From an uncultured Saprospiraceae bacterium (GTDB lineage: Bacteria; Bacteroidota; Bacteroidia; Chitinophagales; Saprospiraceae): a stretch of 33,245 bases of DNA. Below, one piece after another: positions 1 through 9,310 of this stretch. The notes beneath the pieces were generated by a model, which saw only the letters and a list, made by a program, of their open reading frames with translations, did no database searches and was not told where the DNA came from. A program made the position numbers and the translations under genes. Location of the stretch: positions 1 to 33,245 of the forward strand of contig CALJVI010000183.1 in the NCBI GenBank assembly GCA_937974575.1, written 5' to 3'. The number at the start of each line of letters is the position of its first letter. Position 1 is the first letter of the stretch.

Positions 1-3000
1 GGTAAGTAATCAAAGAAAAAATTGGTACTGGCATCTTTTGTAGATTCGTAATAGCCAAGACCACCTTGCCACTTGTACTGACTGAAGACATTCATAGGTT
101 CAAACCCAGAAGCACGCATGTCCTTCATGTGGATAAACTCCATATCTCTATCTACACGGAGTTCAATTCTTACTTTAAGCTTGTCTCCTACTGATAGTTT
201 TGCACCATCGGCGATGGGTTCTATAGTTGCACCACGATCCCCTTGCTTTTCAATAAAGACCTGCTTATTTAATTTTAGCGGAGTTTCTTCAAAGTCAGTG
301 ATCTTATCCAAGTCTTCAAAGTATTGCCAGTAAGCAGCACCCCAGGCAGGGACGGTATTAGGATTGCTTACTTTTAAGGAAGATAAATTGGGATTGACCT
401 CTGTCCAAGAATGCTTGAAATAGCCCGTACCTGCTTGTGCATTAGCTTGACCTTTGGCCAGATCTGCATTAAGTTGTTTATTAGGATAAACGATCTCTAC
501 TTGTTTGGTTTCTTGTAACCAGCTGTCCCCGCTCATAAGCAGTGCATAGACGGCTGCTGAAGTTGCTTTGGTCGTTTCCCAAGCATTGGTCTGTTTGTTC
601 TTCAACAACCATAGACGAAGCTCGTCAACCATCTCCTTATCTTTTGCTACTTGCTCAAATACTTCTATCATGACCGAATGAGTTTCAATAGGCATTTGGT
701 GCCAATAATACCCTTTGTCATACTTCCAGTACTTACCAAGGTCTTCATGACTTAATGCACGTTCTTTGAGGGAAGCTACAATGCCTTGAGCGGTATCGTT
801 CATACCAAAACGATCAAGACCCAGTGCTAACAAACCTTGGTAGTAAAGACCTTGGTCGACCCACTGTTCTTTTGCTCTACCTTGATAGTACTTGGCTACT
901 TTTTGAGTCTTTGCATTCATATCAAAGTCTATGAAAAACGAACGCGCATAAAGATAGTGAATCACCATACCTGTAAGACCTGGATTCTTATTGTATCGCA
1001 AAGCTTCATTGTGATGCTCCACTAATCTAGCATCGATATACTGGACAGCCTTGCGCAAAATATTATTCAAATCCGTATCCTCAAGATCTACTCCTAGTGT
1101 TTGTAGATGACCAAACCCTTCCACAAGATACTGGGTGATATACCAAGAATCTCTCCCACCTGGAAACCAAGAAAATCCTCCATTACTCAATTGTCTTTCT
1201 GAAAGTACTTTTATATGCTTGGCTTTTTCTTGGGACATTTTATTGAGGTCAAAAAGCAGCGCTATATTTCTTCTTTGTTGTTCCTCACTTTGGGCATCCA
1301 ACACCCAGGGCGTCTCTTCTAATAAGGCAGACTTCAGTTCTTGATTTTTACTTAGGTTTGATTTCATAGCATCAGTCCCTTTCCAAGATTCAAATATTTG
1401 TTTGATCTTAGGTGTGCTATTGGCAACGTGGCTAGCCAGTGCATTCGCATATAACTTATTGAATATTTGCTCTGTACACTCATAGGGATACTCCATTAAA
1501 TACGGCAGCGATTGCACTGCGTACCAAGCGGGGTTAGAGGTAAACTCTAAGGTGTATTTATGATTCGTCAAAGTGCTTGATTTATTGTCTCGCATAGTTT
1601 TGAATACGAACTCTTTACTTTCTCCTGCTCTCAATGGCAAAGGCATAGTTTCAGTTACTAATTTTCTATTGGTAAGCACTGGCAATGCACTCTCCTCTCC
1701 ATCGCTATATGCTCCGGCTTCTGCGACTACTCGATGCAGCACTGTACCCAGCATATCCATTGGAATATCTAGATCCCAAAATAAAGCTACGGACTCTCCA
1801 GGTTTTGCTGTAAATGATTTGTCTGATGCTATATTAGCGTAAGCAGCATCTATTGACTCCATGCTGAGCGCATTAAACAGTTCAAGTTTAGCATTTCCTG
1901 TCAATATCTTTTCCGATAAATTAGAAACCTTTGCACTAAATCGAATCTTGTCTCCCTCTCTAAAGAAACGAGGTGCATTTGGCTGCACCATAAGCTTCTT
2001 TTGTGTTACTATTTCTTTAGTTGAAATCGCCGTTGCTAATTCTTTAGTATGCGCAAAGGTCATGAACTTCCACTTTGTCAGTGCTTCATTCATTTTGAAT
2101 TTGATAAGTACATTTCCATCTTTGTCGGTGCGTAAATCTGGAAAGAAGAAAACAGTTTCGTTGAGATTCTTTCTTATGGAAGGACCATTTTTAGCTTCCG
2201 AGTTTGTCTCCTTTTCTTCTTTTTCAGACGCCGTAAAATCAACTTTTTCAGATTCTTCTACCACATTATCGTCAGTATTCATCATCATAGCATCGGCGGT
2301 AACACGTACCCCATCCATTTGAGGCGCAGGTGCAGAGGACTTCATTTTAGCTCGTCTCCCACCAGCTCTTGTACTTTTTACAGATATCTCACTAAGTTCT
2401 TCTTCAGCGTAATTCCATCCATAATTATTTCCATAAAAATCAAATCCATGCCAATCAAACTGTCGATACACTTTCTGAGACTGCTCTAGATATTTCGGCC
2501 TTTGATAATTTAAGCGATACCCACCTTGTTGGGTAAAGTTGGAACCTGGCTGAAGTTGATAGTTGGCATACAAAATAGGGAAATAATTGGCGGACCATTG
2601 ATTTGGTCTGAACTCATCCAATGATGCATCGTACATACCAGCCAGCATTTCGGCTGCTACTTTTTCTTTTTTTGAACCTTCTATTTTGATGATCCACTCT
2701 TCTTCTTGTCCTGGCAATAATTTATCCCTAAATGAAGCATACGAAATCTTTAATTCCTTATTAGACCATGGTACTGGTATGAGACTTGATTGATTGTAAA
2801 TTCGATTGTTGAATACGGTGAATGCAGTCATAGAGATATTCCCTAAGTCTGATTGATTTACAGCTACACTCGTTTCTCGCTTGGTCTTTAGCTTAAGCCA
2901 ATTTTCATCTATAGACTTATCTCTTCTACTAAGCGCTACAAAAACATGGGCATCTTTATATGAAGAAAGAAAATTGACCAAGGCCGTCTGACCTGGTTCA

Positions 3001-5963
3001 TAACTTAGCTTATCTTTTTGCACCGCTAACCCTACTGGACTGGTGACATCTTTGGCCTTGGTACCTATGACCTCAAACGCCAATTCCTTTTTGATTTTAT
3101 TTCCATTCTTGTCGATGGACTCTGCTGTTATCTTGTATTGTCCAGGTACTAATGACAATTTGCTAAGATCCAATTTGCCATCCTCCGTACTGGTAATTTT
3201 TTCACGATACACCTCTTGGTTCTCTTCTAGTGCTATAGCTTGTTTTTTAGCAGCAAATCTATAAGAAGGAAATAGATCACTGAATTCTCTTTCTGTAAAA
3301 TTAACCGTGTCTGGGAAGCTCCAAAAACGATCTCGGTACAGTTTGCTTTCAGACTGTAAAGATGCAATCCGGAGCCTTACCTCCGTAGGCTGAAACTTAC
3401 CATTCAAATTTGATGTCGATATGGTGATGTGCTTAAAACTATCGGCTTCGATTGGCGAAATTGCAGAAACATTCAAGGATAGGGCTAGCTCGCTAGCTCT
3501 GATTACAGTTTGAATAGATCTTGTTTCTCCACTAATATCTGTGATATCTGCAAATACTTTATAAACAAAAACAGCTTGTTGCTTTTTCTTTATACTTGGA
3601 TCAGGCAGCAACTCAAAATCAATATCAAATGTACCATCTGCTTTACTTACTGCTTCTCCGGTCTTTATTCGCATAGGAGCTTGTCGGTTGTATCTGCCAT
3701 ACCTCCACCTCCAATATGGATACTCTACGCCTCGCTCTACTCGATAAGCGACTTTAGCATCTCCGATAGCATTCCCAGCAAAGCCAGTTGCTTTGCCAAC
3801 TACTTTTACCGATTCGCTTAGCGCGTATTCCGCTTCTATGGGCAAAAATTCTGTTTCAAATTTTGGACGCTTATATTCTTCTACACTAAAATTGGTTCCT
3901 CCATATCCATTGATTTGGATGGTCATATTGCCTAGTAGGCCAGAACTTGGTGTAGTAAAACTCCCATTGATACTCCCATATTCATTAGTGGTCAAGTTGA
4001 GTTTTTCAACATCTTGACGATTGGCATCTTTGAGTACTACTTCTAGAGCTTGATTGGTCAGTAGTGTCGGCAATTGTGATTCGCCATCCACATGATGCGC
4101 AATAGCTTTGAAATAAACCGTCTGCCCAGGGCGATAGATGGCTCTATCCAAAAAAATATTTACTGCATTTCTACCTCTTGGGGTATGTTTTCTATTTTTA
4201 TATATCCAATCTTGCATTTGGAGCACATCCTTTCCATACTCCACTTTGGGCATATAACTGTTGTTTTGATCCAAGTCTATGTTCACCATTCCATTAGCAT
4301 CGCTAGTCCCGTTGGTCTTGAGTCGGAGTACACTTTTTCTTGCTGTGGAATTATATTCCTGAAGGTAAAAAGACACCTTAGCCCCTTTTATAGGCTGACC
4401 AGTGATGCGATCTACCACTATCATTTGATGCTCTGGATTATTGGGTGTGATCACATAACTCAGATTGGATACTATAAAAAAGTTGGCTGATATCTCGGCC
4501 TTATCTTTTCCAAAGTTTTTATCATTGGAAGTCAATAGCACATAGTGCCCAAAATCCAAAGGTGCAACTTTGATTTCTGTTTGATGGTTTTGAAAGTCAT
4601 CAAATACGGGAAGCGACTGTGTCCACTCTGAAATTTTCTCTTTATTCTTAATGATAGAAAGCAACTTCCGATTATTGTTGCGAAGATCATGCTCCTCCCC
4701 TGCCTCTATTTGATATAATCTATGATGTACTTTCTTGATATTTTTGTAGCTGATTAGTGTCAACATATTCTCTCCTTTCGGGTAGACTTTTTCCATATCT
4801 ACTTTGAGGAATTCACCTTCTATGCTACTTATTTTATTTTTTGCTTCGTTACGGTTATTGGCTTTTGGATAATCAGAAAGGATCTTTGAATATAACTCAT
4901 GCGCTTTTTTGAGATCATCCTTTTTATCGGCAAGATGCGCTCTACTGCTCATATGAAGGTTGGCTTGCGCCATCAGTAGGGTTGGCATCAATTTTTCTTT
5001 GCCTTTATTTTTGCTGGCTAGATCATTGAGCGCAGCCATATATTTTTTGCCTTTCAGGCTCATTGACCCATTGCTGAAGACCAGGTTTAATCGTTTCAGA
5101 TCTGCATCAAGCAAAGCCACTTCATTGTTTTGAAGCAGGTGATAAGCTAGTACGTCTTGAAATAGTGTGATGGCTTTGTATAGGTGCGCGGTACTGTCTT
5201 GTGTCGTAAAGCTGTGTTTCACAAATTCCGAAACAGGAGCAAAAGCGATATCATCATCTAAATAAAACTTGTACACAGGCTCCGTGAGGTAGCTATTAGG
5301 ATTGACATAGTAGTCCAGTATTTGATGTGACACAAAATCGTATAAGGTAGGTCTAAGATCATCTGTATTTATCGCATCCGTCAGCAATACTTCATACGCT
5401 TTTATGGGTAAGGCTTGCAAAGATTTATCTTTCAAAGCTTCTGCAAAATGCATATTGATCTCATCCACGAAGTTTTGGATAGACCAGGTCTCTAGTGATT
5501 CCGGCTTGAAAGTGGGTGCTGTCGTACGGTTAGAAAACTGCCAATAGTTGCCTTCCAAATAGCTTGCTAGTGATCGCCCGATCATGAAATGAAGTAGTGA
5601 CTTGGCTGGGCCATTCAGTTGATTTACTTCCTCCTTAAAAGTTCGTATGCTGTTTTCAAATCCATATTCTTCTAGTTGGGATCCATATTTTTCTCTATAT
5701 AGAATGGTCTTTACTATTTGCGGAGAATTATTTTCTTTTTTGGCACGGGTGTATAGTGCTGTCACTTTTTCGAGTGCAGATTTTACCAATCCTTTTTGCT
5801 CAAGCGCTAATATGGCTTTCCATTCTTCTGTATAATCATTCATTTCTTGCTGTTTAGTGAGCGGTACGGAATTGGATTGGTGATTAATCTTTGGGCTACA
5901 TGTCATCGCACCAAATAGGATCATCAGAATGGTCAAGGAGACAAACAGGATAGAATTCTTCAT
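1..5963 (-). CDS. Alpha-2-macroglobulin family protein (bacterial A2M, possible lipoprotein), C-terminus beyond the left edge
   Basis: Read on the minus strand from ATG at 5963: MKNSILFVSLTILMILFGAMTCSPKIN..., open to base 1. Contains MG-domain sequence (IFLDRAIYRPGQTVYFKAIAHH), EYPYECTEQIFNKLYANAL (C-x-E-Q thioester motif) and GGFSWFPGGRDSWYITQYLVEGFGHL. Absent from the ORF track, probably because it runs off the window. Confidence 0.93.
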   Translation of the reverse strand, partial: MKNSILFVSLTILMILFGAMTCSPKINHQSNSVPLTKQQEMNDYTEEWKAILALEQKGLVKSALEKVTALYTRAKKENNSPQIVKTILYREKYGSQLEEYGFENSIRTFKEEVNQLNGPAKSLLHFMIGRSLASYLEGNYWQFSNRTTAPTFKPESLETWSIQNFVDEINMHFAEALKDKSLQALPIKAYEVLLTDAINTDDLRPTLYDFVSHQILDYYVNPNSYLTEPVYKFYLDDDIAFAPVSEFVKHSFTTQDSTAHLYKAITLFQDVLAYHLLQNNEVALLDADLKRLNLVFSNGSMSLKGKKYMAALNDLASKNKGKEKLMPTLLMAQANLHMSSRAHLADKKDDLKKAHELYSKILSDYPKANNRNEAKNKISSIEGEFLKVDMEKVYPKGENMLTLISYKNIKKVHHRLYQIEAGEEHDLRNNNRKLLSIIKNKEKISEWTQSLPVFDDFQNHQTEIKVAPLDFGHYVLLTSNDKNFGKDKAEISANFFIVSNLSYVITPNNPEHQMIVVDRITGQPIKGAKVSFYLQEYNSTARKSVLRLKTNGTSDANGMVNIDLDQNNSYMPKVEYGKDVLQMQDWIYKNRKHTPRGRNAVNIFLDRAIYRPGQTVYFKAIAHHVDGESQLPTLLTNQALEVVLKDANRQDVEKLNLTTNEYGSINGSFTTPSSGLLGNMTIQINGYGGTNFSVEEYKRPKFETEFLPIEAEYALSESVKVVGKATGFAGNAIGDAKVAYRVERGVEYPYWRWRYGRYNRQAPMRIKTGEAVSKADGTFDIDFELLPDPSIKKKQQAVFVYKVFADITDISGETRSIQTVIRASELALSLNVSAISPIEADSFKHITISTSNLNGKFQPTEVRLRIASLQSESKLYRDRFWSFPDTVNFTEREFSDLFPSYRFAAKKQAIALEENQEVYREKITSTEDGKLDLSKLSLVPGQYKITAESIDKNGNKIKKELAFEVIGTKAKDVTSPVGLAVQKDKLSYEPGQTALVNFLSSYKDAHVFVALSRRDKSIDENWLKLKTKRETSVAVNQSDLGNISMTAFTVFNNRIYNQSSLIPVPWSNKELKISYASFRDKLLPGQEEEWIIKIEGSKKEKVAAEMLAGMYDASLDEFRPNQWSANYFPILYANYQLQPGSNFTQQGGYRLNYQRPKYLEQSQKVYRQFDWHGFDFYGNNYGWNYAEEELSEISVKSTRAGGRRAKMKSSAPAPQMDGVRVTADAMMMNTDDNVVEESEKVDFTASEKEEKETNSEAKNGPSIRKNLNETVFFFPDLRTDKDGNVLIKFKMNEALTKWKFMTFAHTKELATAISTKEIVTQKKLMVQPNAPRFFREGDKIRFSAKVSNLSEKILTGNAKLELFNALSMESIDAAYANIASDKSFTAKPGESVALFWDLDIPMDMLGTVLHRVVAEAGAYSDGEESALPVLTNRKLVTETMPLPLRAGESKEFVFKTMRDNKSSTLTNHKYTLEFTSNPAWYAVQSLPYLMEYPYECTEQIFNKLYANALASHVANSTPKIKQIFESWKGTDAMKSNLSKNQELKSALLEETPWVLDAQSEEQQRRNIALLFDLNKMSQEKAKHIKVLSERQLSNGGFSWFPGGRDSWYITQYLVEGFGHLQTLGVDLEDTDLNNILRKAVQYIDARLVEHHNEALRYNKNPGLTGMVIHYLYARSFFIDFDMNAKTQKVAKYYQGRAKEQWVDQGLYYQGLLALGLDRFGMNDTAQGIVASLKERALSHEDLGKYWKYDKGYYWHQMPIETHSVMIEVFEQVAKDKEMVDELRLWLLKNKQTNAWETTKATSAAVYALLMSGDSWLQETKQVEIVYPNKQLNADLAKGQANAQAGTGYFKHSWTEVNPNLSSLKVSNPNTVPAWGAAYWQYFEDLDKITDFEETPLKLNKQVFIEKQGDRGATIEPIADGAKLSVGDKLKVRIELRVDRDMEFIHMKDMRASGFEPMNVFSQYKWQGGLGYYESTKDASTNFFFDYL

Positions 5964-6079: not shown

Positions 6080-6131
6080 AATACATCTATCGTAAAGAAA
6101 AGGCATGCCTTTTCTTTACGATAGATGTATT
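6080..6131. repeat. 52-bp perfect inverted repeat with no spacer
   Basis: AATACATCTATCGTAAAGAAAAGGCATGCCTTTTCTTTACGATAGATGTATT equals its own reverse complement. Confidence 0.97.
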
Positions 6132-6159
6132 GATGATCATAGAGGTAGTAGCCAAGGTG

Positions 6160-6370
6160 GGTAGCATGATTCTTAGCTGAGGGGTGGAAGTGATATGAGG
6201 TGGACAGGACGACTCATGGACTAGTGCTCCGCGCAGGCTCCGCTCTCAAAGCGGAGACAAGTGGAGTACATAGTCCATAGGAGACCTGGGTGCCGAATAC
6301 AAACGGACGACCCGACCCTGACATGAAGATAAAGCCAATGCAATGGCTGCATCTACATGTCAGGGGCAGC
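6160..6370. repeat. Structured intergenic element with two nested hairpins (candidate dispersed repeat, copy 1)
   Basis: 6216-6278: ATGGACTA/TAGTCCAT, then GTGCTCC/GGAGTAC (one G.U pair), then CTCCGCT-ctcaa-AGCGGAG. 6316-6365: CCCTGACATG/CATGTCAGGG enclosing AGAT/ATCT and AGCCA/TGGCT. Confidence 0.7.
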
Positions 6371-6458
6371 ACCAAAATCAAGAAAATCACATAAAATATA
6401 CTTATTCAAGTAGCTTGAGTAAGGTGGTCGAATCCTTCCTTTAATGCTCAAAAAATAG

Positions 6459-6483: not shown

Positions 6484-7689
6484 ATGAATCTGCACGAATA
6501 TCAAGGAAAAAACTTATTGAAGGAATATGGTGTAGCGATCCAAGATGGCATCGTTGCGAATACTCCAGAAGAGGCCGTTGAGGCTTATCATAAATTGAAA
6601 GAACGTACCAAATCAGATGTAGCGCTTGTGAAAGCTCAAATACATGCTGGTGGACGTGGTAAAGGTGGCGGAATCAAGCTGGTCAAGAACTTGGACGAGC
6701 TGAAGGCTGAAAGTAGCAATATCATTGGGATGATGCTAAAGACTCCTCAAACTCCAGGAGGAATCGATGGTCCTGGTAAATTGGTGAGCAAAGTATTGAT
6801 CGCTGAAGATGCATATGCGCCTGACTTTGACGCTTGTGAAGAATTTTACGTTTCTATCCTGATGGATCGTGAACGTAAATGCAATGTTATAATCTACTCT
6901 ACAGAGGGTGGTATGGACATAGAGCAGGTAGCTGAAGAAACACCACACTTGCTGCACAAAGAATATGTTGATCCTACCTTGGGTCTTCAAGGTTTTCAGA
7001 TGCGTAAAATCGCTTTCAATCTAGGATTGAGTGGTGATGCATTTAAGGAAATGACTAAGTTTATCAAAAACTTATATAAGGCATTTATTGGTGCTGATGC
7101 ATCTTTGTTTGAAATCAATCCAACTTTGAAGACGGCTGACGGTCGTATTATTGCTGTGGATTGTAAGATGGCAATTGATGATAACGCTCTATTTAGACAT
7201 AAAGATCTAGAGGAATTGCGTGATACTTCTGAAGAAGATGCTACTGAGGTAGAAGCTAGAAGCTATGGCCTAAACTATGTAAACCTTGACGGTAACGTGG
7301 GTTGTATGGTAAATGGTGCTGGATTGGCGATGGCAACTATGGATATCATAAAGTTATCTGGTGGTGAGCCTGCTAACTTCCTTGATGTAGGAGGTACTGC
7401 TGATGCAGCTCGTGTAGAGCAAGCATTCCGTATCATACTAAAGGATCCTGCTGTAAAGGCGATTTTGATCAATATATTTGGTGGAATCGTACGTTGTGAT
7501 CGTGTAGCACAAGGTGTAGTAGATGCCTACAAGAATATGGGTGACGCAATCCAAGTGCCTATCATCGTAAGACTGCAAGGTACTAATGCAGATATCGCAA
7601 AAGATATCATCGATAACTCTGGACTAGAAGTACACTCTGCTATACAACTGCAAGATGCAGCTGACTTGGTTACAAAAGTACTTGCATAA
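6484..7689 (+). CDS. sucC: Succinyl-CoA synthetase (ADP-forming) beta subunit
   Basis: MNLHEYQGKNLLKEYGV, KAQIHAGGRGKGGGIKLV, ALINIFGGIVRCD-type motif (AILINIFGGIVRCDRVAQGVV), LQGTN; full-length ORF. Confidence 0.97.
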   Translation: MNLHEYQGKNLLKEYGVAIQDGIVANTPEEAVEAYHKLKERTKSDVALVKAQIHAGGRGKGGGIKLVKNLDELKAESSNIIGMMLKTPQTPGGIDGPGKLVSKVLIAEDAYAPDFDACEEFYVSILMDRERKCNVIIYSTEGGMDIEQVAEETPHLLHKEYVDPTLGLQGFQMRKIAFNLGLSGDAFKEMTKFIKNLYKAFIGADASLFEINPTLKTADGRIIAVDCKMAIDDNALFRHKDLEELRDTSEEDATEVEARSYGLNYVNLDGNVGCMVNGAGLAMATMDIIKLSGGEPANFLDVGGTADAARVEQAFRIILKDPAVKAILINIFGGIVRCDRVAQGVVDAYKNMGDAIQVPIIVRLQGTNADIAKDIIDNSGLEVHSAIQLQDAADLVTKVLA

Positions 7690-9192: not shown

Positions 9193-9297
9193 AGGTGCTA
9201 GGTGCTAGGTGCTAGGTGCTAAGTGCTAAGTGCTAAGTGCTAAGTGCTAAGTGCTAAGTGCTAAGTGCTAAGTGCTAGGTGCTAGGTGCTAGGTGCT
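9193..9297. repeat. Heptanucleotide tandem array, 15 perfect-length copies of AGGTGCT/AAGTGCT
   Basis: 4x AGGTGCT, 8x AAGTGCT, 3x AGGTGCT; 105 bp with no indels. Confidence 0.97.
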
Positions 9298-9310
9298 GAT
9301 AATGGGAGAC

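Follow-up and report, generated by a model that had tools for sequence, protein, structure and literature searches.

A 52-bp perfect palindrome between divergent genes of a Saprospiraceae genome is an arm-extended variant of a RAYT-associated palindromic repeat

A loopless palindrome and its neighbours

The window analysed here is the whole stretch of 33,245 nt, from the draft genome of an uncultured Saprospiraceae bacterium (G000). A minus-strand gene for an alpha-2-macroglobulin (A2M) family protein (3 to 5963) starts at 5963 and runs off the window on the left, and the plus-strand gene sucC, for succinate--CoA ligase (ADP-forming) subunit beta (succinyl-CoA synthetase beta), occupies 6484 to 7689. 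The region between their starts holds a perfect, loopless palindrome of 52 bp (6080 to 6131, without strand assignment) and a plus-strand structured element resembling Flavo-1 RNA (6179 to 6373). As the palindrome sits between two divergent genes it cannot terminate either A2M or sucC, in agreement with the original prediction made from this sequence. Further along the window, a 7-bp unit (GTGCTAA/GTGCTAG) forms a tandem array at 9195 to 9299, between the gene for the exonuclease VII large subunit and rplS.

The palindrome itself proved to be as it had been described: its arms (6080 to 6105 and 6106 to 6131) are 26 nt each and 100% complementary, with 0 nt between them. As single-stranded DNA it folds into a 24-bp stem with the loop CATG at -23.2 kcal/mol. 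Loopless palindromes with arms of at least 26 nt are expected about 2.4e-11 times in a window of the same composition, so this one cannot be a product of chance. In a 279-kb sample of contigs from the same genome, window included, we counted just six loopless palindromes with arms of at least 10; the window's was the longest, and four of the six belonged to the same repeat family, described below. A different 36-bp perfect palindrome in this genome (L032:1707-1742, contig C150), AAAAATGCTGCATATCCTAGGATATGCAGCATTTTT, resembles a two-way terminator. Comparing the window palindrome with Rfam returned almost only look-alikes among eukaryotic microRNA hairpins, far below cut-off, as any perfect hairpin gives, and these were set aside.

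The Flavo-1-like element begins 47 bp 3' of the palindrome, which in the window is not inside its P1. It comprises a closing stem, a long P1 and a P2 hairpin, and related copies occur in G000 and across the genus; a rough motif scan gave about five in 168 kb of sampled G000 contigs, with none in the control. Folded as 6139 to 6372, the element has a z score of -8.2 against shuffles. Among seven copies, 29 of 42 base pairs were changed on both sides, a figure equalled by 0 of 500 shuffles and far above slid controls; its base pairs have been kept through two-sided changes. The Flavo-1 model (RF01705) did not match the window element, the gathering score not being reached, and palindrome-bearing elements elsewhere in the genome matched it below cut-off. 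Upstream of sucC in the related genomes G004 and G005 stands a version of the element with a GTAGAGACA-type palindrome inside P1, as is also the case for several G000 copies. In several genomes of this genus the repeat itself was seen at the tip of the P1 stem of Flavo-1-like elements, at G000:C13:4031-4150, G002:C376:955-1082, L043, L046, L015 and L049. Hits to Flavo-1 in either orientation to transcripts have been reported in F. psychrophilum (PMC9723704).

A dispersed 28-bp repeat and its RAYT partner

Searching the DNA of the same genome, we found the centre of the palindrome again at other sites. The central 16 bp, AAAAGGCATGCCTTTT, occurred exactly five times (control, 0), with unrelated flanks, and alignment of the copies delimited a repeat of exactly 28 bp, GTARAGANAAGGCATGCCTTNTCTYTAC, beyond which the sequence differs from copy to copy. 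The window palindrome is therefore a composite, with a 28-bp core drawn from a dispersed repeat at 6092 to 6119 (GTAAAGAAAAGGCATGCCTTTTCTTTAC) and 12 unique base pairs on each side: a left arm at 6080 to 6091 (AATACATCTATC) and, complementary to it, a right arm at 6120 to 6131 (GATAGATGTATT), none of the three having a strand. At up to two mismatches G000 holds six copies of the 28-bp repeat (control, 0), whose consensus is GTAGAGACAAGGCATGCCTTGTCTCTAC.

The repeat reaches well beyond this genome. It was present in 10 of 149 related genomes, with a maximum of 34 copies (G030), and the reversed pattern, used as a control, was found in none of the 149. A scan of species genomes listed at least 112 records that carry it, and their titles assign them to at least 12 phyla; many of these records are metagenome assemblies, in which binning errors are possible. 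Titles among the matches listed include Bacteroidota, Gamma-, Beta- and Zetaproteobacteria, Desulfobacterota, Campylobacterota, Chloroflexi, Aquificaceae, Spirochaetes, Gemmatimonadetes, Phycisphaerae, Neomarinimicrobiota, WOR-3, Roizmanbacteria and one cyanobacterium. Isolates carry it as well, among them Desulfamplus magnetovallimortis, two Spirosoma species, Rufibacter glacialis, Massilibacteroides vaginae and Neisseriaceae TC5R-5. The palindrome also stands on sixteen viral contig stretches (L274-L289), a possible vehicle between phyla. A literature search with the letters of the core returned no relevant paper among the matches listed.

This distribution bears on two other readings of the palindrome. 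The first, an assembly fold-back artefact, is hardly credible: long perfect palindromes are suspicious in principle and the draft is fragmented (314 contigs), but the two sides of the palindrome, which is internal to a 33-kb contig, differ in sequence, and its core turns up again at unrelated sites, in isolates as well as in drafts of independent projects. Several of those copies have extended arms, and the same design in independently assembled genomes makes fold-back during assembly unlikely. The second holds that the palindrome is mainly a terminator or RNA hairpin under selection, ending a minus-strand antisense transcript or insulating the Flavo-1-like RNA at its 5' side. The hairpin is strong, it gives a terminator-like hit on the minus strand, a covarying structured element comes next, and copies in G039 are bordered by A and T tracts on their two sides, like two-way terminators. 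However, no T run follows the hairpin on the plus strand, on the minus strand there is only a weak TATTTGTT tail, both annotated genes start away from the palindrome, and a local terminator would leave unexplained why the same core is repeated in coding sequence and in many phyla. We consider this second reading quite improbable.

Since the consensus begins with GTAG, a mark of REP sequences, we looked for RAYT transposases. Loci collected with Pfam Y1_Tnp as a first test were mostly other RAYT or IS200 types lacking the palindrome. A protein query was needed, as Pfam missed the RAYT of the window's own genome. In genome G060 a RAYT (protein P0001) is preceded by three GTAGAGACGTTGCATT half sites at 57-bp spacing just upstream of the gene, the last within a full palindrome of this type (half palindromes at L238:1006-1149, contig C70). 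By tblastn, P0001 identified palindrome-linked RAYT genes in at least 12 loci that had been collected for the palindrome only, with the palindrome in or beside the gene. In eight RAYT genes it falls within the linker between the HUH motif (NHIH or NHVH) and the Y motif, and in six of these its in-frame translation was recognised as ETRHA or GRDKA, in the order HUH, ETRHA/GRDKA, Y (L066, L076, L077, L096, L101 and L051). Conversely, 15 of 30 RAYT loci collected by protein alone had a perfect palindrome with arms of at least 10 bp within about 500 bp, against 1 in 220 kb for the control; these palindromes are often GTAG...CTAC with other centres. Across genomes, a RAYT accompanied the repeat in 9 of 10 cases, compared with 33 of 139 genomes lacking it (Fisher p 4.5e-5). 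The 28-bp core thus belongs to a dispersed family found beside or inside one type of RAYT gene.

The same genome carries such a RAYT gene with the repeat adjoining it. Located on contig C82 (L248), it encodes 192 aa with the motifs NHVH, WQ and YIERNP, and GTTCAGAAAAGGCGTGCCTTTTCTCTAC stands 52 bp before its start codon. That copy has the AGAAAAGG form, as do the window and most other G000 copies; the ACAAGG form is common elsewhere. The only family matched by the C82 protein was NCBIfam REP_Tyr_transpos (NF047646), at 58.8 bits (E 5e-16), below the curated cut-off of 80 bits, and no match reached Pfam Y1_Tnp; it also matches PDB 4er8, a solved TnpA_REP structure. At C82 and at the loci above, copies lie next to a tnpA_REP gene or in frame within it; the motifs expected of such a gene are NH[IFV]H, WQ and YIxNNP, from the last of which YIERNP in the C82 protein departs.

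The sister species G003 has a distinct 28-bp palindrome of its own, GTAGGTGCAGGGCATGCCCTGCACCTAC, which occurs nine times, including a pair of copies that brackets its RAYT, and which is absent from the five remaining genomes of the genus. This is the pattern of one transposase with one repeat known for RAYTs. In G004 (L240:1076-2254, contig C51), three long near-perfect palindromes (arms of about 20 bp, loops of 1-4 nt) surround a RAYT of another type. We also tried the Flavo-1-like elements as repeats of a second Bacteroidetes RAYT type (subclass 2.6-like) and rejected the idea: their motifs were not enriched over reversed-motif controls, and there was no Flavo-1 match near subclass 2.6-like RAYT genes.

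The ends of the core decide its class. Published 'double foot' REPs have the feet GT[AG]G (5') and C[TC]AC (3'), flank their transposase gene and are inserted in it in frame; their transposase, TnpA_REP subclass 2.4, occurs in Cyanobacteria, Bacteroidetes and various phyla (Quentin et al. 2018, PMC6006769). The repeat has the long hairpin of about 20-40 nt with complementary feet, in the window as a perfect 28-bp core, and it is dispersed in several genome copies. The canonical feet are absent from the window copy, which has GTAA and TTAC; among 144 copies examined, 134 have GTAG...CTAC and four GTAA...TTAC. We therefore call it foot-variant and not canonical. It is identical to the copy on contig C13 at 26 of 28 positions, the two differences being a matched pair. 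Of the three copies carrying A at position 4, two carry T at position 25, compared with about 0.16 expected by a hand calculation, and the scan of these two positions was one that could not favour paired changes. By sequence descent, the window copy would be a foot variant of the double-foot type cognate to TnpA_REP subclass 2.4.

Recurrent arm extension around the repeat

The 12-bp arms are specific to the window locus, and extension around the repeat is recurrent. Of 197 distinct copies, 24 are flanked within 30 nt by a perfect inverted repeat of at least 9 bp, compared with 1.5 expected from shuffled flanks or 0.8 from random sites; long arms are missing from the majority of copies (about 85-90%). 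In 14 of the 24, including the window's, both arms directly adjoin the core. Almost all copies in G003 are extended, with a sequence that differs from copy to copy, so that pairing is kept while the letters change. These near-universal arms, together with the excess over the one or so expected among the 197 copies, establish that arm extension recurs far above chance. The nearest analogue of the window palindrome in design is a 56-bp perfect palindrome in G003 (L251:1000-1055, contig C187), with a GTAGGTGCAGGGCATGCCCTGCACCTAC core and 14-bp arms, about 450 bp from a RAYT gene.

These data divide an earlier suggestion that so clean a palindrome reflects recent origin or selection: the core is a very widespread repeat, and only the arms are peculiar to the locus. 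Of the readings that accompanied it, namely a cruciform, an unseen terminator, a dimeric protein site and a fused MITE end, the last came nearest in pointing to a mobile element, since the core belongs to a dispersed palindromic family with a RAYT link; its form is that of a REP-type hairpin and not of two fused MITE ends.

We looked for an empty site in the region upstream of sucC in G004 and G005. None was found, the region being too diverged to date either arm, and the arm-bearing flanks had no significant similarity to these genomes save one A/T-rich match outside the homologous place. With no empty site readable, how the arms arose is a matter that we infer from their form. Our favoured, though unproven, cause is fold-back template switching, to which the lack of any loop bases between arms and core points; paired changes of arms and feet are what quasipalindrome template switching makes (PMC7202029), with hairpin-loop insertion and selection on the hairpin as alternatives.

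Under loop insertion, the repeat would have entered the loop of a pre-existing hairpin, the 12-bp arms would be the old stem, and the transposase would target single-stranded loops. Such targeting is suggested by the apical position of the repeat in the P1 stems of Flavo-1-like elements. Many copies in the genus cap a stem, those P1 stems included, a similar element without the palindrome exists (L030), and at L095 the loop bases left between the core and a surrounding 10-bp inverted repeat are unequal in number (2 and 7). Against this, insertion into a normal loop would leave some loop bases, and 14 copies, the window's among them, have zero; nearly every G003 copy, moreover, has arms of different sequence. 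We regard loop insertion as possible, though somewhat unlikely. Double feet could arise through central deletion of an inverted REP pair (Quentin et al., PMC6006769), a process that would not give locus-specific arms.

Interpretation and comparison with known systems

The palindrome is real and not an artefact, and it is explained in the main as an arm-extended variant of a RAYT-associated palindromic repeat. Very probably it is one copy of a REP-type hairpin, a small, mobile and non-coding repeat cognate to a RAYT (TnpA_REP) of the subclass-2.4 type. By analogy with published RAYT biochemistry, the core would become single-stranded during replication and fold into a hairpin; an HUH transposase would then recognise the hairpin by its foot, cut and rejoin it, and so spread copies in trans. 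The arms would have formed after or during insertion, through fold-back copying of one flank by quasipalindrome template switching. Having lost the canonical GTAG foot, the window copy may now be immobile, and any present role is probably incidental, that of a hairpin 5' of a Flavo-1-like element between divergent genes.

An isolated oddity can thereby be placed in a named class of mobile repeat. The parts most worth follow-up are the spread of one 28-bp REP sequence, found letter for letter in records that span at least 12 phyla even though REPs have been described as species-specific in sequence (Quentin et al. 2018, PMC6006769), and the recurrent arm extension, in which the repeats cap locus-specific inverted repeats about 20 times as often as chance predicts. 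Should the repeat make its arms, bacteria would have a route for gaining long hairpins. A bolder proposal, which we put forward as speculation and consider unlikely, is that a single mobile element, the 28-bp palindrome, crosses phyla and that insertion by a subclass-2.4 RAYT, or replication across the repeat, regularly copies the target flank in inverted orientation. Were it true, RAYT repeats would be a continuing source of new hairpins, long and perfect, among them the stems of structured RNAs such as Flavo-1.

Four known systems can be set beside these features. Quasipalindrome template-switch products (Ripley, Lovett; PMC7202029) differ in that at the window site the process is a proposed one; they are alike in being inverted repeats perfected by nascent-strand copying, which fits the paired changes of arms and feet. 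The neighbouring element resembles Flavo-1 RNA (RF01705; Weinberg et al. 2010, PMC2864571) in its 5' and 3' motifs and closing stem, but its P1 is much longer and the model leaves it unmatched. GTAG-tagged REPs and REPtrons (Di Nocera et al. 2013, PMC3733652) are similar as palindromic repeats of 20-40 bp that end in GTAG and whose movement is attributed to RAYTs; their GTAG, however, is an unpaired tag at one end, whereas here the two ends pair together. That survey reported no GTAG repeats from Bacteroidetes, and the GTAA foot is absent from its main text. The repeat matches the double-foot REPs (PMC6006769), hairpins with complementary feet at both ends that are dispersed between genes, lie beside tnpA_REP genes or in frame inside them between the HUH and Y motifs, and occur in Bacteroidetes, Cyanobacteria and scattered phyla. 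Unlike them, the window copy has GTAA/TTAC feet and 12 bp of extra arm on each side, and its family places one 28-bp sequence in many phyla where species-specific REPs have been described.
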